Both the position numbers and the translations under genes were made by a program. This document shows positions 2,467 through 23,272 of a stretch of 29,007 nucleotides of DNA, piece after piece. Position 1 is the first letter of the stretch. Each line of letters opens with the position of its first letter. The stretch covers positions 1 through 29,007 of the forward strand of contig JACQWU010000138.1 of NCBI GenBank assembly GCA_016209155.1, in the 5' to 3' direction. Source of the stretch: Candidatus Desantisiibacteriota bacterium. Its GTDB lineage: Bacteria; JACRDZ01. The notes beneath the pieces were generated by a model. The model was given only the letters and a program-made list of their open reading frames with translations. It ran no database searches and was not told the DNA's origin.

Positions 2467-3559
2467 ATGCATTTTAAAATTAAATGTATTCCTGATGATT
2501 TTATGGTTGATGAAATTGCGAATCTGCCTCTTAAAGAAAGAGGGGAGTATGCAAGTTATATTTTAAAGAAAAAAGAATGGAATACAATAGAACTAGGATA
2601 AACATGCACTTACTACTCAATATATAACAATAAAAAGTCCTGATATAGTTCTTCTGGAAAAGAAAAAATTTTCACTAAAGTTTTACGGTTTTATGGAACA
2701 GCCCATGACCCCAAATTTAATTGAGGGGAATAAGTTCAAAATTATATTAAGGGATATTACCGAAGAAAATATAGAAAACATACAAAAAGAAATAGAAATT
2801 GTAAATTCCATAGGTTATATTAATTATTTTGATGATCAGAGATTTGGAAGTTTTGAACAAAAACAGGGATTTTTGGCAGAGGAAGTGCTCAAAAGGCATT
2901 TTGGCGAAGTCCTTAAAATATATCTTGTCTCAAGTTGTGATTCTGATAAAAAAGATTTTTTTTTAAAGCATTGGAATGACTGGAAGACCTGTAGAAAAAA
3001 AGCTGCAACAAAATTTGAGAAAAAGACCTTTGATTTTCTAATCAAAAATCCAGTATATTTTCTTTCAATGATTAAACAGATTCCAAAAGAAGGATTGACC
3101 AATCATTTTAGCGCTTATAACGGTTATATCTGGAATGAAGTCCTGCGCAGGATTTTACGGGTAAAAGCTCTATCAGGATTAAAAAGCTATCCCGGAGCTA
3201 TTGGAGATTATATTTTTTATTCTCAACTAAAAAATGAAGATTTTAGCTGGTTTAAAGATTTATTTATCCCTACATTACCTTATAAATTTAAGAATGAAGA
3301 AGTTTTAGTTGATAAGATTTATAATGAAGTAATGGAGAGCCGCGGAATAAAATATTCTATGTTCAATAAGGTAAAGACAAGGCAGGTATTTTTTAAATCT
3401 GTTTTACGTAAAGCTTTTGTAAAACCTGAAGGGTTAAATTTTAGTATTCAGGATGACGATATATATAACAGCAGGAAAAAACTTATTTTAAGTTTTATTT
3501 TACCCCGCGGAAGTTATGGGACAATCCTGATAAAACGAATATTTAGTTCAAGTAAATAG
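2467..3559 (+). pseudogene. truD: tRNA pseudouridine-13 synthase TruD, broken by an internal deletion and frameshift
   Basis: TruD makes pseudouridine 13 in tRNA-Glu. The first piece (ATG 2467, stop TAA 2599-2601, 44 residues) carries the family start (PDDFMVDEI, then KKEWNT). The second piece is in a different frame and reads DKHALTTQYITI from 2597, which matches the catalytic KDKHA motif with its aspartate (D80 in E. coli). It continues through EGNKFKIILRD, NYFDDQRFG and a normal C-terminus (LPRGSYGTI), ending at 3559. Between NTIEL and DKHAL about 21 codons of the family are missing (estimated from remembered E. coli TruD), with a net frame change. A TAG stands where the lysine before the catalytic aspartate should be. 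An ATG-started fragment at 2693-3559 would lack the active site. It follows the RlmN-like gene by 13 nt, so the two were probably co-transcribed. Confidence 0.88.
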
Positions 3560-3638
3560 ACTGAAGGACTTTAGACTGAAGGATAAATCAACAAATTAAT
3601 AACTGAATCTTGCACTTTTTTACCTTCAGACTTCAGCT
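3557..3638. repeat. Intergenic repeat with TAGACTGAAGGA direct repeats and an inverted arm
   Basis: TAGACTGAAGGA occurs twice in tandem (3557-3568 and 3572-3583, separated by CTT). About 40 nt on, ACCTTCAGACTTCAG (3622-3636) is the inverse of the same motif, so the stretch can fold into a hairpin. The stop codon of the broken truD is the first TAG of the repeat. A related but diverged element lies at 4558-4635. This looks like a dispersed intergenic repeat family of unknown mobility. Confidence 0.55.
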
Positions 3639-3667
3639 TAAATATCTGAACGACTATATTTTTTCAT

Positions 3668-3697
3668 TTGACATCTATGTTTTATTTAATTTATAAT
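3668..3697 (+). promoter_or_regulatory. Consensus sigma70 promoter for the beta-barrel gene
   Basis: TTGACA at 3668-3673 and TATAAT at 3692-3697 are both perfect hexamers, with an 18-nt spacer. They lie about 60 nt upstream of the ATG at 3759, which itself has AAGGAG at the right distance. Confidence 0.75.
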
Positions 3698-3758
3698 AAA
3701 TGATTAAGTAATAGCTTGATTACAGAAAAGGTGCTAATATCGAATAAGGAGTAATTTA

Positions 3759-4541
3759 ATGAAGGATATAAATGAAAAATTTATTGTTTTTGCAGTTATT
3801 TTAGCAATATTAGTTTTGCCTCATGTTTTAACAGCATCCGAGGAAAATCAACTTATTGATATTCCTACTGCAGCGATAGTACGTAAAGGTAATTATCAGA
3901 TAACTACGCGTTTATACAAAGATGGCGGATTGCTGGTTCGCGGTAATATTGGATTAATGCAGAGATTTAATCTTGGGATATCTTATGGCGGAACAAGAAT
4001 TATAGATCAGGAAGATCCGGAATTAAATCCAAGTCCAAGCGTAGATATTAAATACCGCCTTTCAGACGGCGGAGTTGGGCTTCCTGCTATTGCTGTAGGG
4101 TATGATCAACAGGGACTGGGTGCGTCTATTAAAGATATTAATGTAAAGGATCCGGTATATAAAAGGTACAGGAATAAATCGAAAGGTTTTTATCTGGTAA
4201 CAACATTGGAGTTTAAATCACTGGGCGGCTTAGAAGCACATGGCGGAGCAAATTACAGTTTTGAAGATAGAGATGATAAAACCGGCAGTGCATTTTTTGG
4301 GATAAATAAAAAAATCGGTCCGGAAATTATTATGATGGCTGATTATGACTTAGCCCTTAATGATGATGCAACATATAGTTATGGTAATGGGAAAGGATAT
4401 TTAAATGCCGGTCTGCGCTGGTATTTTGCTCCGGAACTGGCTCTTGAATTTGATATGTTGAATTTAACTGAAAATGGAAAAAATCAGGGAAGCGATAAGA
4501 TAAACAGGATTATTAAAATTTGTTATACAAATTATTTTTAG
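3759..4541 (+). CDS. Probable outer-membrane beta-barrel protein
   Basis: This is a 260-residue protein with an N-terminal hydrophobic segment (about residues 8-24) ending in LTASEEN, which reads as a signal peptide. The mature part is rich in alternating polar and hydrophobic strands with glycine and aromatic residues (for example GLLVRGNIGLMQRFNLGISYGG, broken here by the strand turns), and the chain ends in an aromatic residue (TNYF), as many outer-membrane barrels do. The early IDIPTA motif and the overall pattern recall the YjbH-like barrel proteins, but I cannot assign a family firmly. It has its own consensus promoter and AAGGAG ribosome-binding site, and is flanked on both sides by the intergenic repeat family. 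This gene is one of the main signs that the organism has an outer membrane. Confidence 0.7.
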   Translation: MKDINEKFIVFAVILAILVLPHVLTASEENQLIDIPTAAIVRKGNYQITTRLYKDGGLLVRGNIGLMQRFNLGISYGGTRIIDQEDPELNPSPSVDIKYRLSDGGVGLPAIAVGYDQQGLGASIKDINVKDPVYKRYRNKSKGFYLVTTLEFKSLGGLEAHGGANYSFEDRDDKTGSAFFGINKKIGPEIIMMADYDLALNDDATYSYGNGKGYLNAGLRWYFAPELALEFDMLNLTENGKNQGSDKINRIIKICYTNYF

Positions 4542-4557
4542 ATAACATTCAGGTGGA

Positions 4558-4635
4558 TAGGCTGAAGGAGGGAAGGCTTTTAGGTATAAATCATTAAAAG
4601 CTAATATACTTCAGTCTTAAGTCTAAATACCTAAA
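4558..4635. repeat. Second intergenic repeat of the CTGAAG family
   Basis: TAGGCTGAAGGA (4558-4569) resembles the TAGACTGAAGGA units at 3557-3583. Downstream, TTTAGGTA (near 4580) is matched by TACCTAAA (4628-4635), and a CTTCAGTCT arm (around 4610) is inverse to the left unit. The element fills the gap between the beta-barrel gene and accA and may form a hairpin. No transposase is associated. Confidence 0.4.
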
Positions 4636-4660
4636 TTATTTTTAATTTGGAGGATAATTA

Positions 4661-5523
4661 ATGTTCTCAAGTAAAACGTTTGATATTGACAGCCCTTTTG
4701 AAAAGGATTTTTCCGGAGATACTGCAGAGGGTACGGCATCCGGGATTGATATTTTGAGAGAAAAAGCACTGGATGAAATCAGGAAAAGAATGCATACGGA
4801 TATCTCTCCGTGGCAAAGGGTTCAACTCGCAAGGCATCCTGAAAGGCCTTATACATTAGATTATATTAAACTATTAATGACCGATTTTATAGAAATTCAT
4901 GGAGATAGAGAGTTCTATGATGATAAAGCCATTGTCGGAGGACCGGCACGTTTTGATGGTAATAGTGTTATGATTATCGGTCATCAGAAAGGAAGAAATA
5001 CCAAGGAAAATCTGCTAAGAAATTTTGGAATGCCTCATCCTGAAGGATTTAGAAAAGCTCTTAGGCTCATGCAGATGGCAAGGGCAGGGCAATAGCATAT
5101 AATTTATATATTATGGCACAGCTTAAGGTTCCAATTATTTCAATAGTAATAGGAGAAGGGGCAAGCGGCGGAGCTTTGGCAATCGGAGTAGCTGACAAAA
5201 TATTAATGCTGGAAAATTCCTATTATTCGGTAATTTCCCCTGAAGGATGCGCCGCTATTCTATGGAAAGATAAAGCAAATGTTCAAGATGCTGCTGAAAC
5301 TTTAAAACTTACAGCAGAAGATCTGTTTAAATATAAAATAATTGATGATATTATCCCGGAACCTGATGAAGGTGCCCATTGTGATTATAAAAAGACTGCT
5401 GAAAATATTAAAATTTCTTTATTAAAACATCTAAGGACATTAAAAGAATTGTCTACTAATAAATTATTACAGATGAGATATGAGCACTATAATATGATAG
5501 GAAGTTTTACGGAAAATATATAA
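4661..5523 (+). pseudogene. accA: Acetyl-CoA carboxylase carboxyltransferase alpha subunit, broken by an internal deletion and frameshift
   Basis: AccA with AccD transfers carboxyl from biotin to acetyl-CoA to give malonyl-CoA, the first step of fatty-acid synthesis. The N-terminal piece (4661-5095) carries [49 protein letters not shown] and KALRLMQMA, then ends at TAG 5093-5095. The C-terminal piece is in another frame. It is readable from 5089 as [18 protein letters not shown] and continues with GEGASGGALAIG, ISPEGCAAILW and a normal end at 5523. Missing between them is the family block that includes the conserved DTPGAYPG and AEERGQ. Eight nucleotides (AGGGCAGG) replace about 87, so roughly 79 nt are lost by comparison with remembered E. 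coli AccA. The start has a good ribosome-binding site (TTGGAGGA). AccA is normally essential, so a sequence or assembly error must be considered. No accB, accC or accD is in the window. Confidence 0.9.
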
Positions 5524-5550
5524 ATTATCCCTCACAAAAGATGCCCTTCT

Positions 5551-5979
5551 ATGAAACATTTTTATATCACTAAAAGCGCAGAAGAAACACAGGAAATAGC
5601 TAAAAAGCTTGCGGTGGAATTAATATCAGGGGATATTGTACTGCTTTACGGAGAACTTGGAGCCGGCAAAACATGTTTTGTTAAAGGTATGGCTCAAGGA
5701 TTAAAAATAGACCCTGAGAAAGTTACAAGTCCTACATTTATAATACTTCATGAATATATGGGAAAATTATCTTTTTACCATTTTGATTTTTACAGAATGA
5801 AAAGTATGGAAGAAATAGAAAATATAGGATTTTTCGATTATATAGAAGCCTCAGGGATAACTGTAATAGAATGGCCTGAAAAAGTAGTTGATTATATAAA
5901 AAAAGAAAGATATGAAATAAATTTTAAAATAAGAGAAGATGGTAAAAGAGAAATAACGATAGAGGATTGGCGATTTTAA
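5551..5979 (+). CDS. tsaE: tRNA threonylcarbamoyladenosine biosynthesis ATPase TsaE
   Basis: TsaE is the ATPase that works with TsaB and TsaD to make t6A37 on ANN-decoding tRNAs. The Walker A loop is GELGAGKT (about residues 35-42), followed by the family motifs VTSPTF, HFDFYR and VIEWPEK. Length (142) is normal. It starts 27 nt after the broken accA with a weak purine stretch as ribosome-binding site, and is followed 68 nt later by tsaB, the usual pairing. Confidence 0.93.
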   Translation: MKHFYITKSAEETQEIAKKLAVELISGDIVLLYGELGAGKTCFVKGMAQGLKIDPEKVTSPTFIILHEYMGKLSFYHFDFYRMKSMEEIENIGFFDYIEASGITVIEWPEKVVDYIKKERYEINFKIREDGKREITIEDWRF

Positions 5980-6047
5980 ATATCATTATTTATAGATTTC
6001 TATGTTTTCTCTGCGGTTAGGTTTTGCCTGGATTTGGGAGATGAAAA

Positions 6048-6809
6048 TTGTGGATTTTGGGTATTGAAACTTCGACACGCACAGGCAGTCTTGCGCTTTT
6101 AAATAATGAGAAAATAGTCTCTGAATTTACTTTAAATACAGATGCTAAATATTCTTCATTGCTTATGCCTATGCTTGATATGATATTAAAATTTTCTAAA
6201 ATTACAGCAAAAGATATAAATGCTGCTGTTGTGTCTATCGGACCCGGATCCTTTACCGGTCTTAGGATAGGTATTAGTACAGCTTACGGGCTTGCGGAGG
6301 CTCTGGAAATACCTGTTATAGGAATCCCCACTCTTGAAGTATTAGCTTATAATTTATTTGATGTGCATGGATTGATTTGCCCGATTTTATCTGCAAGAAA
6401 GGGTGAAGTTTATGCGGCCGTTTATAGATCAGATGTCAATAAGAGCGAAAAAACGTCTCTAAACAGAAAAAAAATAAAAGATAATAGTACAATGCTAAAA
6501 GAATTATTCTCCAGTACAGCTATTAAGATCGAAAACTTTATTCCTATTTTAGAACAATATTCTTGTGCAGGTGAAAATATTTTTTTTGTTGGAGAAGGAG
6601 CGGACGCTTTTAATGAAATTCTTTATGACAGCCTTGGTGAAAAAGCAATATTTGTTCCTTCCTATCTGAATTATATAAGAGCAGGAATTTTAGCAGGTAT
6701 TGGAGGGAAAAGAATTGAGTATAAAAATAAAGCTTTTAATAATAAAAATATAATTACTCCTCTTTATTGCAGGAAATCCGAATTGGAATATAAAAGATTT
6801 AAAAATTAA
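6048..6809 (+). CDS. tsaB: tRNA threonylcarbamoyladenosine biosynthesis protein TsaB, TTG start
   Basis: TsaB is the ASKHA-fold partner that binds TsaD and TsaE in t6A synthesis. Motifs seen: ILGIETSTRTGSLAL at the N-terminus and SIGPGSFTGLRIG (about 68-80), the family hallmark. Length is 253. The start must be the TTG at 6048: GGGAG lies seven bases upstream, the family N-terminus begins right there, and the next in-frame ATG would remove the nucleotide-binding N-terminal strand. The near ATG at 6041 and GTG at 6050 are out of frame. It follows tsaE. No rimI or tsaD is visible nearby. Confidence 0.93.
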   Translation: MWILGIETSTRTGSLALLNNEKIVSEFTLNTDAKYSSLLMPMLDMILKFSKITAKDINAAVVSIGPGSFTGLRIGISTAYGLAEALEIPVIGIPTLEVLAYNLFDVHGLICPILSARKGEVYAAVYRSDVNKSEKTSLNRKKIKDNSTMLKELFSSTAIKIENFIPILEQYSCAGENIFFVGEGADAFNEILYDSLGEKAIFVPSYLNYIRAGILAGIGGKRIEYKNKAFNNKNIITPLYCRKSELEYKRFKN

Positions 6810-6837
6810 ATCGAAATATTCAAGTATTCCCCTGTAA

Positions 6838-6866
6838 TTGCATGAGAGTATATTATGTGATATAAT
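6838..6866 (+). promoter_or_regulatory. Sigma70 promoter for the IPT/TIG lipoprotein gene
   Basis: TTGCAT (6838-6843) and TATAAT (6861-6866) are separated by 17 nt. The gene's AGGAGG ribosome-binding site follows near 6880, and the ATG is at 6893. Confidence 0.7.
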
Positions 6867-6892
6867 TTATAAATATTATAGGAGGAAATTAT

Positions 6893-8974
6893 ATGCGAAC
6901 AAAGTTTGAAAATGGACTGATATTTTTATTGAATTTTGTTTTTATTACGTTATTAATTTCATCGCTTTCTTGCAGTCTGCAAGGTAAAAAAAATAAAGAT
7001 GATGATAGTAGCAGTAACAACAATAATAATAATAATAATTTAAAAAAAGCTTATATCTATTCACTTGATAAATCTAAGTTCAGGGTTGGGGACCAGATTG
7101 TAATTACCGGTTATAATTTTGGACCGGTTCAGGGTTCAAGTTATGTTAAGTTTAATACAACCAGAGTTATCCAATATCCCCTATGGTCAGATTTAAAGAT
7201 TAAAGTTATAGTACCTGTTAATTCATTTTCCGGTAAAACCAAAGTAGTGACCCCAACTTCAGATAGTAATATGGTTGATTTTAGAGTACTTTATCCTCCC
7301 ATCATAACTGATTTTTTTCCAAAAACAGCAAGACTGGTGTATGATACAGTTACTGTTACAGGAAGAAATTTTGGAACAGATCCAAGTGATATTGCAGGAG
7401 AAATAAAATTATTGGATGTAGATATCAGTTCTATTCATATTACGGAATGGAATGACAGTACTGTAGGTTTTATTGTACCGGTTATAACTCCTACAGGTCT
7501 AAGGAAAATATATATATCCACTTCTGAAGGAACAGACAGTACCTCAAGCAAAATTAAAATTATTAAAGGACCGGTTATTGATTCTATAACTCCAAATCCT
7601 GTATTTTTGGGAGATTATATATCTATAACAGGTACAGATTTCATAGATCCTCATTCTGATACTGAATATGTTACTATCGCAGGAAATGTTGTTGAAAGTT
7701 TTGTCTGGAATGATAATGAAATCAGGATTAATATAACAGATAATCTCACTTCCGGTGATGTTATTGTTCATACTTATATTGCGAATAGCCCTCCTGTATA
7801 TTTAACCATTAAGAAGCTGATTACCGGATGGCAGGCAGAAAATATAACACAGCTTGGAGATATTTCTGATTCAACATCCTTTGTATCAGTATGCTATGAT
7901 TCATCAAATGATAAAATCCATTTGAGCTATACAAATGTTAATTCGGAAGATACTTATATCTATTATTCAAATAATGGGTCCGGCAACTGGAATATAGAAA
8001 CAGTTGATAAGGGTTTTGTTCCCAGCATGACTCTTGATAATTCCGGGAATCCGGATATTATTTATTATACAAAAGAAAACACTTTGAAATTTGCACGCAA
8101 TATAGGATCGGGATGGGAAACGGCTATTATAGATAAGAGCGGCGGGGATAAAAAATTATTACGTCCTTCAACAGATTCTATAATGGATTCACAGGGAATT
8201 AATCACATTATTTATAATATAAATGATAAAAATTCAGACCAGAGAATAAAATATGCCCGGATAGATTCATCAGGCGGTTTGGTGCGCGGGCCGGGAAGTA
8301 TTTCCAGAAATAACGAATTTAGATATTCACAATTGGCAATAACTTTAAAAAATGATGATTTGCCTTTTGCAGCATCTACAGTTAAATATGATACTAGTAA
8401 ATTAAGTAAAGCTAATTTGATTAAATTTTTTGAAACAACATCTGTGAGCAGCTGGGAAGAAACAGAGATGAAAAGGCCTGAAGGATTTGACTCGCTTGCA
8501 TCCTATGGCGGTATAAGTCTGAAGACAGATGATGAAGGAGTAGTCCACGTAGCATACGTTGATGGCAGTACTATGCCGAATATTCAAAATCCGTCGATTG
8601 TTAATGGTGGAATAACTTATTTAACTTATTCCCCTTTATCAAAAACCTTGAAAGAATTACCAAAAGCTTATTCTTCTGATAAATTTTTTGACAGCTGGGG
8701 TAACCATTTATTTTTAACTTTTAAAGCAAAAAATACATTCATAATTTTTACAGTTCCTGAAAGTCCTTATTATCCGGGAGTAAAATATGCGCTTTATTCT
8801 ATTGAATTTAATACTCCGGATAAATACTGGTATGATCCTAAAAATATCAGAAATGGTTTAGATAGTCCAAACTTTGGCTTTATTAATGATAAGTTAAACA
8901 GACCTCATATTTTCTTTTATGATTCCGGACATTTAAAGCATATTATGTATTATGATACTATAATAGTTAAATGA
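6893..8974 (+). CDS. Secreted lipoprotein with IPT/TIG domains and a propeller-like C-terminal half
   Basis: This is a 693-residue predicted lipoprotein. A hydrophobic N-terminus (about 9-26) ends in SSLSC, a relaxed lipobox. The cysteine is followed by a charged and low-complexity linker with eight asparagines (residues 42-49). Three IPT/TIG immunoglobulin-like domains follow, at about 50-135, 136-225 and 226-306, each with the typical glycine-rich GxNFG or GTDF turn (ITGYNFGP, VTGRNFGT, ITGTDF). The C-terminal half has recurring units of the type 'SxxxDSSGNxHIxYY...LKYAR', as in sialidase-like beta-propellers. It is likely tethered to a membrane with the propeller facing outward. Ligand or substrate is unknown. 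It has its own promoter and a strong ribosome-binding site. Confidence 0.78.
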   Translation: MRTKFENGLIFLLNFVFITLLISSLSCSLQGKKNKDDDSSSNNNNNNNNLKKAYIYSLDKSKFRVGDQIVITGYNFGPVQGSSYVKFNTTRVIQYPLWSDLKIKVIVPVNSFSGKTKVVTPTSDSNMVDFRVLYPPIITDFFPKTARLVYDTVTVTGRNFGTDPSDIAGEIKLLDVDISSIHITEWNDSTVGFIVPVITPTGLRKIYISTSEGTDSTSSKIKIIKGPVIDSITPNPVFLGDYISITGTDFIDPHSDTEYVTIAGNVVESFVWNDNEIRINITDNLTSGDVIVHTYIANSPPVYLTIKKLITGWQAENITQLGDISDSTSFVSVCYDSSNDKIHLSYTNVNSEDTYIYYSNNGSGNWNIETVDKGFVPSMTLDNSGNPDIIYYTKENTLKFARNIGSGWETAIIDKSGGDKKLLRPSTDSIMDSQGINHIIYNINDKNSDQRIKYARIDSSGGLVRGPGSISRNNEFRYSQLAITLKNDDLPFAASTVKYDTSKLSKANLIKFFETTSVSSWEETEMKRPEGFDSLASYGGISLKTDDEGVVHVAYVDGSTMPNIQNPSIVNGGITYLTYSPLSKTLKELPKAYSSDKFFDSWGNHLFLTFKAKNTFIIFTVPESPYYPGVKYALYSIEFNTPDKYWYDPKNIRNGLDSPNFGFINDKLNRPHIFFYDSGHLKHIMYYDTIIVK
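7016..7039 (+). repeat. Asn-codon microsatellite (AAC)2(AAT)6 inside the lipoprotein gene
   Basis: Two AAC codons are followed by six AAT codons, encoding eight asparagines just after the lipidated cysteine region. The unit is three bases, so slippage would change linker length without shifting the frame. Confidence 0.85.
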
Positions 8975-8991
8975 GCTAAAAAAGGAGAAGT

Positions 8992-10542
8992 ATGATTGAT
9001 AATTTTTATGAGAATAAAATAATAGTTTTGGATTTCGGCTCACAATATACTCAATTAATTGCAAGACGCATCCGTGAGCTGGAAGTTTATTGTGAAATAC
9101 ATCCATATAATATTTCAATTGATGAATTAAAAAAAATAAATCCTAAAGGGATAGTTCTTTCAGGCAGTCCTTCAAGTGTGTATGAAGATGAAGCCCCGAA
9201 TTGCGACATTAATATATTTAATCTGGGGATTCCTGTAATTGGAATATGTTATGGAATGCAGCTTATGGTTTTTTTACTTCGTGGAGAAGTAATTAAAGCT
9301 GACCGTCAGGAATACGGGGAAGCTAAATTAACAATAGATAAACTTGATGGTGTTTTCGCGGGATTAGATGAGGAAATTTTTGTCTGGATGAGTCATGGGG
9401 ATTATATTTCAAAATTGCCGCAGGGTTTTGAAGTAATCGGACATACCAGAAACACACCGATGGCAGCCATTGCTTACGAAAAGAAAAAGCTCTATGGATT
9501 GCAGTTTCATCCGGAAGTTGTGCATACTCCGCTGGGTAAAAATATTTTAAAAAATTTTGTTTGTCAAATATGTGAATGTAAACAGAATTGGACTATGGGC
9601 AGGTTTATTGAGCATTCAATAGAAATAATTAAAACAAAAGTCGGAGATAAAAAAGTTGTTTGCGCTTTAAGCGGAGGGGTGGATTCTTCTGTTACAGCAA
9701 TATTAATACATAAAGCAATCGGTGATAATTTAATTTGCATATTTGTTAATAATGGTTTGCTGCGTAAAGGGGAAAGCAAAAAAGTTATAGATGTATTTAA
9801 AAATCATTTTCAGATCAACCTCCATTATGTAAATGCAGAAAAACAGTTTTTAGATAAATTAAAAGGAGTAACTGATCCTGAACAAAAACGGAAGATTATC
9901 GGGCACGAATTTATTTCTATATTTGAGAATGAAGCCAGATCCTTCGGGAATATTAAAATTCTTGCTCAGGGGACTCTATACCCCGATGTAATAGAAAGTG
10001 TATCGGTTAAAGGCCCTTCAGCTACAATTAAAACTCATCATAATGTCGGGGGGCTGCCGGCTAATATGAATTTAGAATTAATCGAACCCTTAAGAGAACT
10101 TTTTAAAGATGAAGTAAGAGAAGTCGGTAAGGAATTGGGTATGGCTGATGAACTTATTTACAGGCAGCCTTTTCCAGGCCCGGGGCTTGCAATCAGGATT
10201 ATTGGAGAGGTAACTGATGAGAGGCTGAATATTTTAAGAGAAGCAGACACTATTGTACTTGAAGAAATAAAGAAGAGCGGAATATACTATAATGTATGGC
10301 AGTCATTTGCCGTATTGCTTCCTATTAAAACTGTAGGAGTTATGGGTGACAGCCGTACTTATGAAAATGTCGTAGCTCTTAGAATTGTTACGAGCAAGGA
10401 TGGTATGACAGCTGACTGGGCAAAAATACCTTACCTGGTATTAAGTGATATATCCAATCGTATAATAAATGAGGTAAAAGGTATAAATCGTGTCGTTTAT
10501 GATATTAGTTCAAAACCACCAAGTACTATTGAGTGGGAATAA
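8992..10542 (+). CDS. guaA: GMP synthase (glutamine-hydrolysing)
   Basis: GuaA converts XMP to GMP using glutamine and ATP. The class I glutamine amidotransferase domain covers about residues 9-195, with catalytic C86 in GICYG and H173/E175 in QFHPEV. The ATP-pyrophosphatase domain has the SGGVDSS P-loop at 226-232, and the C-terminal dimerisation domain ends in the normal KPPSTIEWE. At 516 residues it is complete. The start ATG at 8992 has AAAGGAG at the proper distance, 17 nt after the lipoprotein gene. The phasin-like gene follows after 27 nt. Confidence 0.98.
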
Positions 10543-10569
10543 TTAGTTTATTTAAAGGAGGTGGAGAAA

Positions 10570-10881
10570 ATGGATTTTATAAAAAAAATAGCTACTGCCG
10601 GACTTGGAGCTGTTCTTCTTACTGAAGAAAAGATTAAAGAGGTAGTTGATGATTTAGTAAAAAAAGGAGAGATGTCTGAACTGGAAGGGAAAAGTACAGT
10701 AAAAGATATTTTAAATAAAATTGATGAAAATAAAAAATTTATTGAAGATAAAATTGTCGAACATTTTGAAGTATTAATGAAAAAGGCAAATATAGCAGCT
10801 CCTTCAGACATACAAAAATTAGAAAAGCGAATAGAAAAACTGGAAAGCTTATTGAAAGAGAAAAACAAAGAAACTAAATAA
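10570..10881 (+). CDS. Small phasin-like helical protein
   Basis: This is a 103-residue protein, almost entirely helical, with a hydrophobic first helix (FIKKIATAGLGAVLLTEEKI) and a coiled-coil C-terminus (KLEKRIEKLESLLKEK). It resembles the 'polyhydroxyalkanoate synthesis regulator phasin' group, where the name reflects sequence class and not proven polyester binding. A GTG at 10561 would extend the frame by three codons, but the AAAGGAGG Shine-Dalgarno overlaps that GTG, so the ATG at 10570 is the real start. No PHA synthase is in the window. The following gene is a UbiB-type kinase, a pairing I recall from other genomes. Confidence 0.7.
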   Translation: MDFIKKIATAGLGAVLLTEEKIKEVVDDLVKKGEMSELEGKSTVKDILNKIDENKKFIEDKIVEHFEVLMKKANIAAPSDIQKLEKRIEKLESLLKEKNKETK

Positions 10882-10910
10882 AAAGCTTCTTTGGGGAATT
10901 ATTCATATTA

Positions 10911-10938: not shown

Positions 10939-10954
10939 CTGTTGAGGTTATGCT

Positions 10955-12640: not shown

Positions 12641-12647
12641 CATAAAA

Positions 12648-14521: not shown

Positions 14522-15736
14522 TTATAAATAAACAATATCTTCCGAATGGTACAATGAAATAAATAATAATAAATAGTCTTTTAAATGTCTTGTTATTAAA
14601 TAATTATTTTTTATATGCTCCCTGCCGTTTTCTCCTAATTTTTTTGCATATTCAGGGCTATTCAAAAGCTGTTTAATTGCAAATGCGGCGCCATCAATAG
14701 AATGGCAAAGCAAACCGGAATGTTTGTGTGTTATTTGTAAAGGTATTCCGCCTACGTTAGATGCAACAACAGGCTTTGATTTCCAAAGAGCTTCGGAAAC
14801 TGTTAGGCCAAAACCTTCCTTAAGTGATTTTTGAATGATAATTGTTGATGCCCTCTGCAGAGCGTTAACTTCAAGGTCACTATGAGACAATAATAAAATA
14901 TGAATATCTTTATCCTTTGCCGCTTTTTCTTTTACCTCTTCAAAAACTTTTATCCCTTCTGGGTCATCAGCTGCAGTTCCTCCGGCAAGAATCAGCTGGC
15001 AATCTATATATTTTTTTTTTTCTATATAAGCATCTATAACTCCTACAGGGTCGTTTAACCGGTCAAATCGCGAAATTTGTGTAACCATAGGTTTATCTTT
15101 TATAATTCCATATTTTGTTAAAACTGAATCTATATATCCCTGCGGTAGTTCCTTATTCTTATCGCTTAAAGGATCAATTGAAGGCGCGATCAAAAATTGC
15201 CTTATCGGAAAGTTTTGCTGCGAATAACTTGGTGCGGAAAATACAGCCGCGTTATATTTAGGAATAAAATCCATTAAAAATTTCCATACTTTTTTATCAG
15301 GGTTAGACACATCAACATGACAACGCCAAATCCATTTATTATTTGTTTTTTTGTTTATTAAAACTATTGGCTGAGGATCGTGTACAAAAACTATATCACT
15401 GTAATTTGTTATTTCTTCCATATTTTTGCGGGATGTTTCCATGAAGATATCAAACTCATCTTTAGTTATATCTTCTTGTTTACCATGCAATGCATTATGA
15501 AATTTTTTTGTTATATCAAAATATTTTTCTCCTCCTTTAATAACATCCCATCTTGTGTCAACATTAAGGTCTATCATCAAAGGAACCATTTTGTTTAATA
15601 TCTCAGCCACACCGCCTCCGACAGAAGTAGAATTAATATGCTGAATTGACTTCCCTTTTAATTTTTCCGCGATAAGTTTAAGGTCATCAATGATTGGCTG
15701 TCCTACTATAGGTATATATTTTTCTATCTTTGCCAT
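14522..15736 (-). CDS. treT: Trehalose glycosyltransferring synthase (TreT-type GT4)
   Basis: TreT joins glucose to an NDP-glucose to give trehalose, reversibly. The N-terminal Rossmann domain has INSTSVGGGVAEIL and VHDPQP, and the C-terminal GT4 domain has QISRFDRLNDP and the donor-site block LKEGFGLTVSEALWKSKPVV with VGGIP. Length 404 is typical. It is the last gene of the trehalose operon, starting 1 nt after the DUF5752 gene ends. Having TreT together with OtsA and OtsB gives two independent routes to trehalose. The possible alternative, another GT4 sucrose or trehalose enzyme, is unlikely given the neighbours. Confidence 0.9.
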   Translation of the reverse strand: MAKIEKYIPIVGQPIIDDLKLIAEKLKGKSIQHINSTSVGGGVAEILNKMVPLMIDLNVDTRWDVIKGGEKYFDITKKFHNALHGKQEDITKDEFDIFMETSRKNMEEITNYSDIVFVHDPQPIVLINKKTNNKWIWRCHVDVSNPDKKVWKFLMDFIPKYNAAVFSAPSYSQQNFPIRQFLIAPSIDPLSDKNKELPQGYIDSVLTKYGIIKDKPMVTQISRFDRLNDPVGVIDAYIEKKKYIDCQLILAGGTAADDPEGIKVFEEVKEKAAKDKDIHILLLSHSDLEVNALQRASTIIIQKSLKEGFGLTVSEALWKSKPVVASNVGGIPLQITHKHSGLLCHSIDGAAFAIKQLLNSPEYAKKLGENGREHIKNNYLITRHLKDYLLLFISLYHSEDIVYL

Positions 15737-15737
15737 T

Positions 15738-16409
15738 TTAGTATCCTGCTTTTTTTTCTATTATTTCAATTAGTTTTTTCCTTAAAGCATCCAGTGTATA
15801 AGTATAAGGATCAAGTTTTGATATTTTTTTAGCCAGTTCTTTATCCTCTATGGAGTTTTCTACCCAATTGGAGAAATCATTTATTCCTTTTTCAAGCCTC
15901 AAACGCGCTTCAAAAATATGAAAATATATAGAATCTATGGTTATTTTTCTTAAAACCTCTGCGAATTCTTTTAAATTATATGCATAATAATTAGTTGGTA
16001 AAATAAAACTTATGGATTTAACAAAATGGAATTCATCATTTATATTCGCGAATCTATTTTTTACGGAAGGTTTTTCCTTTATATAATCTTCAATAGTTAA
16101 CATGATTTTTTCACGCAATGAACGAATTGTTGTAAATTGTATAGTATCAACACTTGCCAGTCTTTCACCTAAATCATCTTCTCCTAATATCTCAGTAACC
16201 CAATACGCAAAATCATTCGGTGGTTCCGGAGACAAATATTGATGCTGCTGTAAAAATTTATGTGTATGGTGATAAATGGAAGAACCCGGAACATTTTTAA
16301 TTAGCTCAACCAATTGTTCCAAATTTGCTGCTTTTAAACCCGTTAGTTCCGTTAAGTGCAGTCTTGTATAAAATCTGAATGGTTCCTGTGCGTTTTTTAT
16401 TTCTGACAT
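15738..16409 (-). CDS. DUF5752 family protein of the trehalose operon
   Basis: This is a 223-residue soluble, largely helical protein of unknown function. The conserved start FRFYTRLHLTELTGLKA and the HTHKFLQQHQYLSPEPPNDFAYWV block match what I recall as DUF5752. It contains two similar halves, each with an 'F..W' helix followed by 'LD..T.T...LR.K' (FAYWV...TIQFTTIRSLREKI and FSNWV...PYTYTLDALRKKL), suggesting an internal duplication. It sits between otsB (3-nt gap) and treT (1-nt gap), so translation is probably coupled. I infer a role in trehalose metabolism or its control from the location alone. Confidence 0.8.
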   Translation of the reverse strand: MSEIKNAQEPFRFYTRLHLTELTGLKAANLEQLVELIKNVPGSSIYHHTHKFLQQHQYLSPEPPNDFAYWVTEILGEDDLGERLASVDTIQFTTIRSLREKIMLTIEDYIKEKPSVKNRFANINDEFHFVKSISFILPTNYYAYNLKEFAEVLRKITIDSIYFHIFEARLRLEKGINDFSNWVENSIEDKELAKKISKLDPYTYTLDALRKKLIEIIEKKAGY

Positions 16410-16412
16410 TTA

Positions 16413-17207
16413 TTATTTCCTTATTTCTAAAATACATTTCAGTACTTTCACAACTTCCTTAGTATCCTTTAAATAATATTTTGCTTTTGACAATTTAGTT
16501 TTACCGACAAATATTGTTATTCCTTTATTTCTCAATATCTCAAATGCATCTTCATCAGTAGTATCATCGCCGAAATATATCGGGTATACATTCTTATTTT
16601 TAAATAAATTCTGTTGTTTTTTTAAAATTTGTGATACAGATTTGCCTTTATTCCATTCTATTGGAGGCATTATTTCAAAAACTTTTTTCCCATTTTTGAC
16701 TTTTATATCCATATTTTTTTTATATAATAATACTGCATCATTAATTATAGCTTTTACTAAAGGAATATTATTTTTATTTACTAATCGATAATGAATGCTT
16801 AAGGAAATATCCTTATCTTCTAACAGTATACCATTGATATCTGAAAATTTATTTATTAAACTATTTTTTATTATTTTTAAAACATTTTTGTATTTTTTTG
16901 AAACCAATGCTTTAAATTTAAATCCATATCCGTCTATTTCTAATCCATGATTACCTGAATAAATAATATTTTTTAATTGTATTTTGTTTTTTAGGTATTT
17001 AATTTCTCTTCCGCTTATAATAACTATTTTGCAATCGGATATTTGTGATAATTTCCTTAGTAATTCTTTTGTGTTTTTGGAAATAACCGCCTTCTCCGGG
17101 GTTTTAGCAATAGGTGTCAAAGTGCCGTCAAAATCACAAAATATTAATAAATATTTATATCGTAATATATTTTTTATATCATCCCATTTGCGGAATAAAT
17201 ATTCCAT
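16413..17207 (-). CDS. otsB: Trehalose-6-phosphate phosphatase
   Basis: OtsB removes phosphate from trehalose-6-phosphate. The HAD motif I is CDFDGTLTP with nucleophile and acid aspartates D25 and D27 (numbering from the start chosen here), followed by IISGREI, SGNHGLEI and GDDTTDEDAF with motif-IV aspartates. Length is 264. An upstream in-frame start at 17258 would overlap the end of the synthase gene by 49 nt. I choose the ATG at 17207, which lies 2 nt after the synthase stop and has AAGGA overlapping that stop codon. This arrangement suggests translational coupling of synthase and phosphatase. Confidence 0.92.
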   Translation of the reverse strand: MEYLFRKWDDIKNILRYKYLLIFCDFDGTLTPIAKTPEKAVISKNTKELLRKLSQISDCKIVIISGREIKYLKNKIQLKNIIYSGNHGLEIDGYGFKFKALVSKKYKNVLKIIKNSLINKFSDINGILLEDKDISLSIHYRLVNKNNIPLVKAIINDAVLLYKKNMDIKVKNGKKVFEIMPPIEWNKGKSVSQILKKQQNLFKNKNVYPIYFGDDTTDEDAFEILRNKGITIFVGKTKLSKAKYYLKDTKEVVKVLKCILEIRK

Positions 17208-17209
17208 AT

Positions 17210-19444
17210 TTAGGTTTTCCTTAGTGAGGTTAACTCTGTAATAATACTCCCTGCCCAATGATAAATATTGTTTTCTTTTACAATTTTACGCATATTTCCC
17301 ATTCGTTTTCTTTTTTCTTCAACTGGTAAATCCAACGCATATTTTATAGCTTCTGAAAATTCTTCTATGGAATAAGGATTAACTTGTACCGCATCCATCA
17401 ATTCTCTTGCCGCACCCGCAAAACGGCTTAAGATTAATGTTCCGTTCAAGTCGCTTTTCGAGGTAATATATTCCTTTGCAACAAGATTCATGCCGTCATG
17501 CAAAGAGCTTACAATACAAAAATCAGCAAGTATGTAATAAGGTTTTATTTCTTCAGGTGAAAAATGTCTTTTCATATAAATTATTGGCTTCCAATTCCCA
17601 TTCGAATGTTTCCAGTTCTTTTTTTCAACAAGGTCATCAATTTCTGCCATCAGATCATGGTAACGTTTTATATGAGTCCGGCTCGGAGCGGCAATCTGAA
17701 TAAAAACAAATTTGTTTTTATATTGAAGATTTTTATCCAGGAATTTATCTATTGCAAGGATTTTTTCAATTAATCCTTTAGTATAATCGATCCTATCAAC
17801 ACCTATCCCGATTATTTTATCTTTTAAATTTAATTCATTTCGAATTTCTTCTATTTTTGATATTTCATTTTTGGTAACATCACTATTTCTAAAGTCTACG
17901 CTTATAGGGAAAGGCCTTATAAATGTCTCTATATTATTTCTTATAACACTGAATTTTTCAGTATCAACGCGACTTTCGATTAATCTGTTAGCTGTATCTA
18001 GAAAATTATTGCAGTGTGATTGAAGATGAAATCCAATCAGGTCACAGCCCAGCATGCCATCCAGTATTTCCTGCTGATAAGGACAAATCGCGAAAACCTC
18101 AGGATTAGGCCACGGTATATGCCAAAATAACGCAATGGTGGCATCCGGCCGTTTTTCTTTGATCATTTTTCCTAAAAGTGTAAAATGATAATCCTGAATA
18201 AATATAAACGGATTTTTTGCGGGTAACTCATCTAAAATATTTTCGGCAAATTTTCGGTTTACTTCTTTATAAATATTCCAATCATTTTCTCTAAAACTAG
18301 GCCTTGTATGAGTAACATGGCAAAGCGGCCATAAACCTTCATTTGAAAAACCGTAATAATATCCGTCTTCTTCTTCTTTTGTAAGCCATATTCTTTTTAA
18401 TATACAGCGTATATCATCTGGAGGAACTCCTAATTTATTTTTGGAATTTACATAATTTTTATCGCTATTACCGGCTCCGTGAGCGATCCATGTTCCACCG
18501 CAGGCGCGTAAAATAGGGTCAATAGCCGTAACTACACCACTTGCAGGTCTGATTAAAACATCTTTTCCAATTGTTTCATCAAATACGTGCATAAATGGTT
18601 CTCTGTTAGATACTACAAATAAGGCGTTTTCCCCTAACCTGGCTTGAACAAGATCTCTTAATTTTTTTTCTGTCCATAATTCTTCTTTTTCTAAACGAAT
18701 TTTAGCACTATCAGTCACAACCTTTCGTGCTACTCTTAAACTTAAGGCAACCTGCTCAACCTCGCTTATAAGTTTTCCAAATTCCCCTTCTTCTAGGATA
18801 GATGGTCTTAATTTATCAATTTCTCCCTTTTGAAAATGTTTAAACCAGTCTGTAAGCCGGCGAACAGGTAAAACAAAAATTTGTCTTTGAATTAAAAGAG
18901 TTATAACAGTTATTGAAATCAATAAAATAGTTAAGGTAATTGTTATTCTTTTCCATAATTGTGTTAATGTTACAAACATATATGAAGTATCGTATATAAC
19001 TTCCACAAATCCCAGAATATTGCTTTCATCATCTAAAACAGGCAAAATATAACTATAGATGGAATATTCTTTATACTTATCTAATTTATCTTTTGGTTTT
19101 TTAGTTAATAAAATATTAGCTAAATCCGTTTTATTAATATTTTTCCATTCAAATATTTTTTCTGTAATAACAAAAATCTGCCCGTCTTTATCATAAATTA
19201 CACAGCCCTGGGCTCTTTCTCTTTTTTGAAAACTTTCAACAAGTTTAAGTGCTGATTTATGATCTTTATTAATTAAAATATGTTTAGCTGATAATTCCAC
19301 GCTTTCAGCTACTGCCCGCGCTTTTCTTTTAAGCTCGTCCATTAATCTTTCTTCTTCAAAACGCACCTGAAGAAATCCAAAACCAGCGATAATAATGGTT
19401 ATTATAATTAAAATTGGCAGTGTAAATAATAATATTCTTTTCAT
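17210..19444 (-). CDS. otsA: Membrane sensor-HAMP-trehalose-6-phosphate synthase fusion
   Basis: The C-terminal domain (about 275-744) is a GT20 trehalose-6-phosphate synthase, which joins UDP-glucose and glucose-6-phosphate. Motifs seen: VVSNREPFMH, CGGTWIAHGAG, FWHIPWPNPEVF (440-451), GVDRIDYTKGL (548-558) and SSLHDGMNLVAKEYI (646-660). The N-terminal part is unlike free OtsA. It has TM1 (about 4-24), a ~140-residue extracytoplasmic domain with a PAS/Cache-like strand pattern (GCVIYDKDGQIFVI, then LPVLDDESNILGFVEVIYD), TM2 (about 167-185), and a HAMP-like helix pair (about 186-240) with LPVRRLTDWF, then a coiled linker. This is the layout of a chemoreceptor or histidine kinase with the kinase replaced by a glycosyltransferase. 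It starts 22 nt after the small membrane gene. The start has CAGGA upstream. Confidence 0.93.
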   Translation of the reverse strand: MKRILLFTLPILIIITIIIAGFGFLQVRFEEERLMDELKRKARAVAESVELSAKHILINKDHKSALKLVESFQKRERAQGCVIYDKDGQIFVITEKIFEWKNINKTDLANILLTKKPKDKLDKYKEYSIYSYILPVLDDESNILGFVEVIYDTSYMFVTLTQLWKRITITLTILLISITVITLLIQRQIFVLPVRRLTDWFKHFQKGEIDKLRPSILEEGEFGKLISEVEQVALSLRVARKVVTDSAKIRLEKEELWTEKKLRDLVQARLGENALFVVSNREPFMHVFDETIGKDVLIRPASGVVTAIDPILRACGGTWIAHGAGNSDKNYVNSKNKLGVPPDDIRCILKRIWLTKEEEDGYYYGFSNEGLWPLCHVTHTRPSFRENDWNIYKEVNRKFAENILDELPAKNPFIFIQDYHFTLLGKMIKEKRPDATIALFWHIPWPNPEVFAICPYQQEILDGMLGCDLIGFHLQSHCNNFLDTANRLIESRVDTEKFSVIRNNIETFIRPFPISVDFRNSDVTKNEISKIEEIRNELNLKDKIIGIGVDRIDYTKGLIEKILAIDKFLDKNLQYKNKFVFIQIAAPSRTHIKRYHDLMAEIDDLVEKKNWKHSNGNWKPIIYMKRHFSPEEIKPYYILADFCIVSSLHDGMNLVAKEYITSKSDLNGTLILSRFAGAARELMDAVQVNPYSIEEFSEAIKYALDLPVEEKRKRMGNMRKIVKENNIYHWAGSIITELTSLRKT

Positions 19445-19466
19445 AATTCTTTTTCCTGGTTGTAAT

Positions 19467-19802
19467 TTATGCTTTTATAGATAAATAGTTTTTAGCAAAA
19501 TTCATAATGAGCCATAAAATAGAAGAAAAGATTATAAGTTTAACTGAATACTTTTTCCAATGATCTATTATTGCAGGTTCACGCTCGGTTGTTAACCCAT
19601 TTAAATAACGAATATCAATATAGCGTAAAATAATTAAAATTACTACGTTACTAAAATAAAAAATATTTATCTGCATCATTGATTCCGGATTATTAACAGC
19701 TACATAAATTGCTAAAATTATCATAATAAAATTACCCAAAGCCATCCAGTAAAGTCGAATTAAAAATTCTGCAAGTGAATTGTTATTGTCTTTTTTTTCC
19801 AT
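19467..19802 (-). CDS. Small three-span membrane protein, first gene of the trehalose operon
   Basis: This 111-residue protein has three hydrophobic segments, at about 16-36 (ALGNFIMIILAIYVAV), 45-60 (INIFYFSNVVILIILRY) and 88-105 (LIIFSSILWLIMNF). No family is recognised. It has a very strong AAAGGAGG ribosome-binding site, is the promoter-proximal gene, and lies 22 nt upstream of the sensor-synthase fusion. A role as a membrane partner of the fusion is possible but purely inferred from position. Confidence 0.75.
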   Translation of the reverse strand: MEKKDNNNSLAEFLIRLYWMALGNFIMIILAIYVAVNNPESMMQINIFYFSNVVILIILRYIDIRYLNGLTTEREPAIIDHWKKYSVKLIIFSSILWLIMNFAKNYLSIKA

Positions 19803-19833
19803 TTATTCCTCCTTTAAGTTTTTAATTGTTTGC

Positions 19834-19932
19834 AAAAAAAAAGACCGACATCCGGCAGATATGTTTATATGTATCTGCAGAATAGCGGCCCGGCTATCCC
19901 AAAAAAAACCTCCAGAAGAGAATATTCTTCTG
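19834..19932 (-). promoter_or_regulatory. Structured leader (three hairpins and two U-tracts) upstream of the trehalose operon
   Basis: Read on the - strand, the leader holds three hairpins in order. Hairpin 1 (19932-19913) has a 7-bp CAGAAGA/TCTTCTG stem, followed by GGAGG and eight T (19908-19901). Hairpin 2 (19900-19879) has a GGGATAGC/GCTATTCT stem with loop CGGGCC. Hairpin 3 (19878-19855) has a perfect 7-bp GCAGATA/TATCTGC stem. After these come GCCGGATGTCGGTC and nine T (19842-19834). The tract lies between a good promoter and the first gene (19802). The pattern suggests an attenuator or cis-regulatory RNA. It does not match any riboswitch consensus I can recall. Confidence 0.5.
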
Positions 19933-19965
19933 AACCCAATATAATTTAATGAAATTGATTTTTAT

Positions 19966-19994
19966 ATTATATATAAGTAATTTTATTAAATCAA
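19966..19994 (-). promoter_or_regulatory. Sigma70 promoter of the trehalose operon
   Basis: On the - strand, TTGATT (19994-19989) and TATAAT (19971-19966) are 17 nt apart. Transcription would begin near 19959, giving a leader of about 155 nt before the first start codon at 19802. Confidence 0.7.
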
Positions 19995-20052
19995 GTTTTT
20001 TATTTTCACCTGAAAATCTACGTAAGTCATTGATATTATTCGAAATATGGGA

Positions 20053-20139
20053 GGTAGGAGCAATCTCCTGATTGCGATATTTATAAATTCGTTACAGCAA
20101 TTACAATTACAGCATCGCAGTCAGGAGACTGCTCCTACC
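20053..20139. repeat. Pair of inverted REP-like elements (REPIN)
   Basis: The left copy (20053-20078) and the inverse of the right copy (20114-20139) agree at 24 of 26 positions. The common frame is GGTAGGAGC, AxT-type triplet, CTCCTG, matching triplet, GCGAT. Each copy folds on its own (GCAATC/GATTGC with loop TCCT on the left, GCAGTC/GACTGC with loop AGGA on the right), and the two copies can also pair with each other. The two differences fall on opposite sides of the same stem position and preserve pairing. A foot GTAG followed by a GC-clamped hairpin and GCGA is the general outline of bacterial REP elements mobilised by RAYT enzymes. No RAYT gene is in this window. A third copy is at 23299-23323. 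Confidence 0.8.
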
Positions 20140-20335
20140 AGCTCCTATTTACCTGCTCTTATAAATTTTCATGCTCCTTTGTGCCAATTTGTTGGCATGA
20201 ACGTTGCCTTATAAAAATTTGAAATAATCGATAATCTCTTAACTTAACACCTATGGGCTAAAGCCTTGCTCTACATAACAAAGGGACTGAATTTAATGCG
20301 TTTGCATCCGGGTGTTGAGCTGTTGAGCTGTGCTC
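20140..20335. other. Non-coding stretch with small repeats upstream of the trkA promoter
   Basis: No gene is seen. It contains a perfect 6-bp hairpin, TGCCAA/TTGGCA with loop TTTG (20182-20197), a GGGCTAAAGCCT motif near 20254 that looks like a decayed palindrome, and a tandem TGTTGAGC duplication (20313-20328) just upstream of the -35 box. Together with the REP pair it looks like a place where small repeats have accumulated. Confidence 0.5.
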
Positions 20336-20364
20336 TTGACTTATTATTCATAATGATATACTAT
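20336..20364 (+). promoter_or_regulatory. Probable promoter of the trkA-trkH operon
   Basis: TTGACT (20336-20341) is followed by TACTAT (20359-20364) at 17 nt, or by TATACT (20357-20362) at 15 nt. Transcription would start near 20371, about 80 nt ahead of trkA. Confidence 0.6.
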
Positions 20365-20394
20365 ACATTGATAATATAATAAATTAAAAATCAT

Positions 20395-20424
20395 GACCAA
20401 TGAAAATTGGTCTTTTGTTTTTTT
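20395..20424 (+). terminator. Rho-independent terminator or attenuator just upstream of trkA
   Basis: GACCAAT and ATTGGTC form a perfect 7-bp stem with loop GAAA (20395-20412), followed at once by TTTTGTTTTTTT (20413-20424). It lies downstream of the promoter at 20336-20364 and 26 nt upstream of the trkA start, so it would either end a very short RNA or act as an attenuator of the Trk operon. Confidence 0.75.
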
Positions 20425-20450
20425 AGGGATTATGAAAAAGGGATAAAAGT

Positions 20451-21095
20451 ATGAATATAATTATTGTTGGATGCGGCAGGGTGGGTTCGGATTTAGGTAA
20501 GATGCTCTCTGTTGAGGGGCACAATATCATAGTAATTGATACAAATCCGGATGCATTTAAAAGACTGGGTTCAATATTTAATGGTTTGCAGATTATTGGA
20601 TCGGGTACGGATGAAATTTTATTAAAAGAAGCTAAGGCAGAGCAAACTGATATTTTTATCGCGCTTACTGATAAGGATAATATAAATATTATGTCAGCTC
20701 AGGTTGCAAAAGCTGTTTTTAATATTCCCAAGGTTATTGCTAAAATCAATGACCCGGATAGAGAAAAAGTTTTTAGAGGACAGAATTTCGGGATAATAAG
20801 CGGTACGCATCTTATTGCGTCAGCTATTTTAAATGAAATATCAAACAAGCTGTATACTCAATGTTATATAATCTCAAATGATACTCAAATAGTAAAATTT
20901 ACTGCTGTAAATTCAATGATTAATAAATATATTAATCAATTGCATACAGATGAAAATTTTTTGATTTCCGCTGTTATCCGTGATAATAAAAGTCATCTTG
21001 CAATACCTAATTTAAAAATAAGACCAAAAGATGAGTTGATAGCAATAGTAAAAACCGAATTTTTACCGCAGCTTGAAGAAATGCTGCTAAAATGA
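20451..21095 (+). CDS. trkA: TrkA-type K+ uptake regulatory subunit, single RCK unit (first copy)
   Basis: This 214-residue protein has one RCK_N Rossmann domain (nucleotide-binding VGCGRVGSDLG at about 6-16, acidic end of strand 2 in IDTNPDAF, and TDKDNINIMSAQVAK) followed by a C-terminal RCK_C domain (about 135-212). It binds NAD(H) or nucleotides and gates a TrkH/KtrB-type channel from the cytoplasm. E. coli TrkA carries two such units in one chain. Here they are encoded as two genes, this one and the next, 18 nt apart. The ribosome-binding site AGGGAT is modest. Confidence 0.93.
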   Translation: MNIIIVGCGRVGSDLGKMLSVEGHNIIVIDTNPDAFKRLGSIFNGLQIIGSGTDEILLKEAKAEQTDIFIALTDKDNINIMSAQVAKAVFNIPKVIAKINDPDREKVFRGQNFGIISGTHLIASAILNEISNKLYTQCYIISNDTQIVKFTAVNSMINKYINQLHTDENFLISAVIRDNKSHLAIPNLKIRPKDELIAIVKTEFLPQLEEMLLK

Positions 21096-21113
21096 AAAAT
21101 TTAGGAGTCGAAT

Positions 21114-21779
21114 ATGTTTATTGTAGTTATGGGTGCAGGACAAGGTGGGTATTATCTTTGCAGAGAATTAATAGCAGATGGTCATACAATTACCCTTATT
21201 GATAAGGATAAATCCGTATGTGACAGAATAGCCAGAGAATTAGAGAAACTTATTGTGATATGCGGTGAAGGAAGCGATCAGAATTGTCTTGAAGATGCAA
21301 AGATTAAGAGAGCGGATGTTTTTGTCGCAGTTACAGGAATTGATGAGGATAACTTAATAGCATGTCAGCTGGCAAAAGAGGTTTTTGAAGTAAAACGTAC
21401 TATCGCAAGAGTAAATGATCCAAGAAATAAAAATATCTTTAGCAAGTTTAAAGTAGATACTTCAATAAACAGTACAAGTATTTTAATAAAAATCATTGAA
21501 GAAGAAACTTCACTTGATGATTATATGCCTTTATTTGCTTTTAAAAGAGGGAAAATATCTATTGTTAGAGTAGATTTGCCAACAACATCCCCTGTTGTAG
21601 GAAAACTGGTACGTGATATAACTCTTCCAAAGGATTGTGTATTAGTTTCTATTTTACGCGGTGAGCAGATGATACTGCCCAAAGGCGATACAAAGTTAGA
21701 AATAGGTGATGATGTAATTGCTTTAACAACAATTGAAAATGAACGGGATTTATTTCATGCGCTGGTTGGGGAATTATAA
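21114..21779 (+). CDS. TrkA-type K+ uptake regulatory subunit, single RCK unit (second copy)
   Basis: This 221-residue protein has the same RCK_N/RCK_C layout as its upstream neighbour: GxGxxG in MGAGQGGYYLC (6-16), DKDKSVCDRI, CGEGSDQNCLEDAKI, and an RCK_C domain about 140-218 with LPKGDTKLEIGDDVIALTT. The two copies are diverged and probably form hetero-oligomers under the TrkH channel, as with split TrkA pairs elsewhere (inferred). It starts 18 nt after the first copy, with TAGGAG as ribosome-binding site. Confidence 0.92.
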   Translation: MFIVVMGAGQGGYYLCRELIADGHTITLIDKDKSVCDRIARELEKLIVICGEGSDQNCLEDAKIKRADVFVAVTGIDEDNLIACQLAKEVFEVKRTIARVNDPRNKNIFSKFKVDTSINSTSILIKIIEEETSLDDYMPLFAFKRGKISIVRVDLPTTSPVVGKLVRDITLPKDCVLVSILRGEQMILPKGDTKLEIGDDVIALTTIENERDLFHALVGEL

Positions 21780-21802
21780 AGAATTTTAATAAGGAAATAG
21801 TA

Positions 21803-21946
21803 ATGGCTTATATAGAAAATTGTAAAAAACTCTGGTCGGATTCATGTAAATCAACTATAGGTATTATAGTTGAATTTGCTCTTCCTTTAGTTTTATTTGT
21901 ATTCCACTTGATCATTGCTTTAATTTTGTGGAGTATTTTTTCATGA
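21803..21946 (+). CDS. 47-residue single-span membrane peptide between trkA and trkH
   Basis: An ATG at 21803 with AAGGAA upstream opens a 47-codon frame ending at TGA 21944-21946, which overlaps the trkH ATG as ATGA. The product starts with a polar segment (MAYIENCKKLWSDSCKS) followed by a long hydrophobic helix (about 19-46). Ribosome-binding site, operon position and stop-start overlap all support a real small gene. I know no family for it. A small accessory subunit of the K+ transporter, in the manner of KdpF, is a plausible but unproven role. Confidence 0.65.
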   Translation: MAYIENCKKLWSDSCKSTIGIIVEFALPLVLFVFHLIIALILWSIFS

Positions 21947-23272
21947 CTATAAAACCAACTGCGCAGGATTTCCGCATTATTTTATTTAATACCGGAAGGG
22001 TATTAATCGGTCTTGCATTTATAATGCTTATACCTCTTATCACAGCTCTTGCTTATTGCGAATGGAATGTCGCAATTGATTTTGGAATAGGTATAAGCGC
22101 ATCCTTTTGCGCAGGGTATCTTTTTCTGATACTTTTCCATACTGATAAAGATCCTCAATGGGTACATGGAATGTCATCAGTAGCAATATCCTGGCTATTA
22201 TGTACTTTTTTAGGAGCATTACCGTATCATCTGTCCGGTCATTTTATTTCATATCTTGATTCCTGTTTTGATATAATGAGCGGTTATACCACAACATCTT
22301 CCAAATGTTACAAAAACAGCTCGAATGATATGGGTAATCAGTATAGTTTATCTTGTGATAGGATCATGTATGCTATGGATTACAGGAATGATAGAGGGGC
22401 TTAAACCTTTACAAGCTTTACTTCATAGCATATGGATTTTTATGTCCTGCTGGAGTACGGGTGGTTTTGCCCCACAATCGCAAAATTTGCTTTATTATCA
22501 TAGCCCGGCAATAGAATTTATAGGTATGACAATAATGATAATAGGTTCCTTAAATTTTGCATTACATTATGCTATATGGATAGGAAATTATAGAGAAGTT
22601 TATAAAAATATTGAAATTAAATCATTTATTATAACGCTTACCTTATCTTTTATTTTATGTTTTTCCGCTTTAATTTCAACTCATGTTTTTCCTGATTTTT
22701 TAACCATTTTCAGGAGGGCTTTTATCCATGTTATATCAGCTCATACTACAACAGGAGTAATGAGTGTATATGCAAGACAGTTTATCGTAGAATGGGGATC
22801 TCCTGCTATGGTTGGAATTATCCTTGCTATGGCAATCGGAGGAAGCGCATGTTCAACAGCAGGAGGATTTAAAGGAATACGCATGGGTATATTAGCAAAA
22901 GCGTTATCTCAGGATATAAAAAAGCTGGTATCTCCAGAATCATCGATTATAATTCAGAAGTTTCATCATATAAAAGATGTTGTGCTTGAGGATTCTCATG
23001 TCCGTTCAGCGGCTTTAATTGTAATTTTATATGTATTTATTTATTCGATAGGCACTGCAGTTGGAATGATGTATGGTTATCCTGCGCTTGATGCTGTTTT
23101 TGATGCGGTATCTGCAGGTTCAAATACAGGTCTTAGTTGTGGAATTACTTCTGCGTCAATGCCTGCATTGCTTAAAATAGTTTATTTTTTAGAAATGTGG
23201 GCAGGGCGCCTGGAGTTTAATGCAATTTTAGTTTTGTCAGGAGTATTTTATGCATCTTTTACTGGTAAATAA
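21943..23272 (+). pseudogene. trkH: Trk-type K+ transporter membrane subunit TrkH, broken by an internal deletion and frameshift
   Basis: TrkH is the K+ pore with four M1-P-M2 repeats. The first piece runs from ATG 21943 (preferred over GTG 21928 because of the ATGA overlap with the preceding small gene) through the first filter SGYTTTS, and then reads nonsense to TGA near 22404. The second piece, in another frame, is readable from about 22298 as LPNVTKTARMIWVISIVYLV, which aligns with the E. coli RPRIAETAK-LWLIY segment. It continues through the remaining pore repeats (STGGFAP; SAHTTTGVMS; GGSACSTAGGFKGIR; SAGSNTGLSCG) to the normal C-terminus AGRLEFNAILVL. About 62 codons are missing in between, including the FYR..WFGGMGI region after the first filter (estimated from remembered E. 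coli TrkH). An ATG at 22325 would start a C-terminal fragment. Confidence 0.88.

Follow-up and report, generated by a model that had tools for sequence, protein, structure and literature searches.

Three conserved genes, truD, accA and trkH, are interrupted within a single 29,007-nucleotide stretch of DNA from a Candidatus Desantisiibacteriota bacterium (the whole stretch is referred to as the window), which raises the question of whether the interruptions belong to the organism or to the assembly. The window is contig 51 of the draft metagenome bin G000, which comprises 3.08 Mb in 352 contigs and is 78.8% complete and 2.3% contaminated. Two relatives from the same phylum, G001 and G003, formed the comparison set, and proteins from these two genomes, from reference loci and from unrelated genomes were used as queries against the G000 stretches, which amounted to 606 kb (62 stretches plus the window, with two contigs wholly masked). 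A same-species or same-genus genome giving the true sequence was looked for, and none was found. The three breaks are very probably scaffold-join errors of draft metagenome assembly, that is, an ordinary error rather than biology.

The left piece of truD (2467..2601, plus strand, frame 1) corresponds to positions 17-60 of the Pfam TruD profile and supplies 43 in-frame residues, while past the break one codon is followed by a TAA stop. Similarity to L117 in this piece ends at 2595, and the frame changes at the junction (2595..2597, plus strand), where 21 residues (~62 nt) are gone when the intact TruD of G001 is taken as the reference. The right piece (2597..3559, plus strand, frame 2) covers profile positions 82-411 (E 8e-35), and the conserved DKHA motif stands directly 3' of the lost block. 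The left piece of accA (4661..5095, plus strand) matches Pfam ACCA positions 31-153, and the right piece (5081..5523, plus strand) continues in a different frame with positions 165-310 (E 1.7e-60). Their junction lies near 5080/5081 (5065..5081, plus strand), where the two alignments share 16 nt and ~79 nt are gone. This loss is evident against more than 20 different reference AccA proteins, which also bear out the proposal of the initial annotation that the near-universal DTPGAYPG block falls within the missing part; a pattern search through the whole bin found the motif nowhere else. Family similarity in the left piece of trkH (21928..22404, plus strand) stops at 22296, and the right piece (22298..23272, plus strand) covers Pfam TrkH positions 140-489 from 22298 onward. 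The intervening junction (22296..22298, plus strand) carries a frame change and fuses ...GYTTT straight to ...LPNVTKTAR.

The three genes had been described as sharing one lesion, i.e., the loss of an internal block together with a frame change, and this description is confirmed, since family sequence flanks one sharp break in each. The sizes originally given, roughly 60, 80 and 185 nt, hold for truD and accA, while the trkH loss is revised to ~173 nt. The junctions of truD and trkH are sharp to the extent that similarity reaches the break from both sides, leaving 0-1 unassigned base. The remaining conserved genes of the window look intact, as had been stated, and each of the other named genes covers its Pfam profile almost fully, with near end-to-end coverage for TsaE, the TsaB-type protein, GuaA, the UbiB-type protein, the Na+/H+ exchanger, TreT, OtsB, OtsA and both TrkA proteins.

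Several other features of the window were recorded along the way. A trehalose cluster on the minus strand (14522-19444) harbors a TreT-type synthase, a DUF5752 protein, OtsB and an OtsA carrying a membrane segment at its N-terminus. On the plus strand, a perfect 12/12 match to a sigma-70 type promoter (TTGACA-18-TATAAT) is located at 3668-3697, upstream of a gene at 3759-4541 that has no Pfam match. A secreted-looking protein of 1174 residues (25043-28567, plus strand) contains carboxypeptidase-regulatory and SdrD B-like repeats, after which come more repeated units; its final ~30 residues are unlike the repeats, and it ends 6 nt from a converging gene for a RACo-type corrinoid activation protein (28573-29007, minus strand), of which the C-terminal part is present and which is truncated by the contig end. 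A further join at the end of the 1174-residue protein is possible.

The initial annotation had also advised scanning the rest of the genome for split conserved genes. A loss was counted when it was internal, free of Ns, at least 25 nt long, accompanied by a frame change and situated in DNA covered by homology. Ten more such losses, with sizes of ~28-254 nt, were detected outside the window in 114 kb of assayed coding DNA, versus one in 260 kb when the same scan was applied to G001 plus G003 (one-sided binomial p = 5.5e-5). For the two relatives this corresponds to a background of ~0.4 losses per 100 kb of assayed coding sequence, which the window, with its three, far exceeds. The genes hit outside the window encode a P-type cation ATPase, RadC, a UDP-sugar dehydratase-type protein, UDP-glucose dehydrogenase, RtcB, MurE, a family 4 glycosyl transferase, a family 2 glycosyl transferase, an AAA/DUF4143 protein and one protein that matches no Pfam profile, among which the AAA/DUF4143 protein and both glycosyl transferases gave the least sharp cases. 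In the majority of other genomes that strongly match RtcB, MurE or the two sugar enzymes, the protein is a single unbroken piece, and the flanks of the P-type ATPase retain 74-78% identity right up to the break. Moreover, a symmetric test at equal evolutionary distance, in which G000's own proteins were used on the relatives, gave losses in 7 of 76 G000 gene stretches, the window's three included, versus none of 82 in G001 and G003. The lesion type is genome-wide in G000 and is not special to truD, accA and trkH.

A MutL-like gene at L200:2940-2942 displays a frame change with only ~8 nt gone and more weak breaks downstream, which may represent a different kind of lesion or another join. In-frame losses (24-66 nt) resemble ordinary indels between relatives, and therefore the 2:1 ratio expected between out-of-frame and in-frame losses gave no usable test. 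A control that took 80 unrelated loci as search subjects was dropped, many of its 169 frame changes resembling shadow reading frames of high-GC genomes. Internal stop codons, counted as an indicator of decay, were likewise uninformative, at least some of the sites arising from antisense shadow frames.

The bin bears marks of its construction elsewhere. It contains 17 N-runs of 8-106 nt in ~601 kb, as compared with one in 800 kb for G003, which marks G000 as a scaffolded draft. At five of the 17 (11-106 nt in length) the sequences directly at the two edges repeat exactly, over 16 nt at L139:3102-3183, 10 nt at L148:1769-1874, 23 nt at L197:2303-2313, 17 nt at L205:825-858 and 7 nt at L206:5756-5774. 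The chance that a random join displays an overlap of at least 7 nt is 0.00025 per join. To judge from these repeats, the contig ends at the five sites most likely overlap and the Ns should be absent, which implies that the gap sizes were misjudged there and over-estimated by 26-116 nt.

A single scheme would account for both kinds of fault. Contigs would have ended inside truD, accA and trkH, and the assembler would have linked their ends by paired reads while misjudging the gap. A positive estimate would yield a run of Ns of the wrong length, either too long or too short; if the estimate was zero or less for a gap that in truth measured ~60-170 nt, the ends would be fused directly and the internal block lost, with a frame shift wherever the lost length is not a multiple of three. 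Gap errors as large as those at the N-runs, acting in the opposite direction, would swallow gaps of ~60-170 nt. The N-free losses thus probably stem from the same scaffolding step that misjudged the N-run gaps, and the living organism presumably carries intact truD, accA and trkH. At the N-free junctions no duplicated end or other direct trace of joining is visible, and scans for a shared motif, repeat, promoter or terminator at the junctions revealed nothing common. Loss during assembly, one of the explanations offered at the outset, is strongly supported on account of the genome-wide scan and the N-run evidence. The accompanying suggestion that assembly failed at highly conserved spots fared less well: in the eight genes with enough homologues, the lost blocks have a mean placement percentile of 0.72 (p ~0.04), a value confounded by the fact that detection needs conserved surroundings, and it hints weakly at a preference of the breaks for the most conserved spots.

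Recent small deletions in the lineage, produced by error-prone end joining or slippage, would fit the sharp junctions and the undecayed flanks, and any single lesion could in principle be real. Such deletions would have to explain at least 13 losses in ~124 kb of assayed coding DNA, affecting accA, murE and other housekeeping genes, and a density of ~9 per 100 kb assayed extrapolates to well over a hundred broken genes genome-wide, which is not credible in housekeeping genes of a free-living lineage. Nearly every bacterium that possesses AccA and MurE depends on them for survival. No long direct repeats lie beside the three junctions, and no repeat pair convincingly brackets them in the sequence as assembled; a search for Ku (PF02735) gave no match in the bin, which counts weakly given that the bin is 79% complete. 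Together with the independent marks of poor scaffolding in the same bin, these points make real deletions extremely unlikely, and end joining in particular, which the initial annotation had considered, is left unsupported by the missing Ku match and by housekeeping genes broken too densely. A more drastic form, in which conserved genes of the lineage truly have undergone numerous recent frame-shifting deletions of 60-170 nt, through an unusual mutator process and in a population nearing genome collapse, is barely conceivable.

Coexisting strains might instead differ at these sites, the assembly having taken a deletion allele or broken at a variant spot. Strain variation is a known cause of contig breaks, and the slight lean of the lost blocks toward conserved stretches (n = 8) agrees with it; however, a true deletion allele of accA or murE would presumably kill its carrier, no second copy of the missing pieces was found in the bin, and the idea mostly overlaps with the assembly explanation as a cause of contig breaks. 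Mixed alleles are therefore very unlikely as a separate account, while they may be one reason for contig breaks at the junctions. Functional rescue through programmed frameshifting, bypassing or split proteins would accord with both pieces of each gene being open and well conserved; the residues, including the DTPGAYPG block of AccA, are nevertheless absent from the DNA itself, which excludes frameshifting or bypassing as a rescue, and with many unrelated families affected and no common junction motif, the genes being functionally whole is next to impossible. Errors of assembly remain the best explanation of the whole set.

Comparable faults have been described in a review of metagenome curation (Accurate and complete genomes from metagenomes, Genome Res. 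2020, PMC7111523). Its passages on assembly errors describe local assembly errors as unsupported local joins, suspected to be most prominent in IDBA-UD assemblies, and a second type of fault in which Ns are inserted despite overlapping flanks, in IDBA-UD and CLC assemblies. G000 resembles the genomes treated in those passages in having Ns despite overlapping ends, local joins inside genes and many such errors per genome. The errors there are defined by read support, whereas the faults of G000 are known from the assembled sequence, and the join that drops bases without Ns is a mechanism proposed here for G000. Pseudogenes arising from small internal deletions likewise lose an internal block and change frame; in G000, by contrast, the losses densely affect housekeeping genes, their flanks are well conserved, and scaffold faults have been demonstrated in the same bin.

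The same passages warn that when curation is omitted, protein-coding sequences that are incomplete or wrong spread through public databases. About one in ten assayed conserved genes of this bin (7/76 stretches, as above) is broken without any N mark, and consequently automatic annotation would log false pseudogenes and false gene splits. Claims of gene loss in this lineage require prior read mapping.
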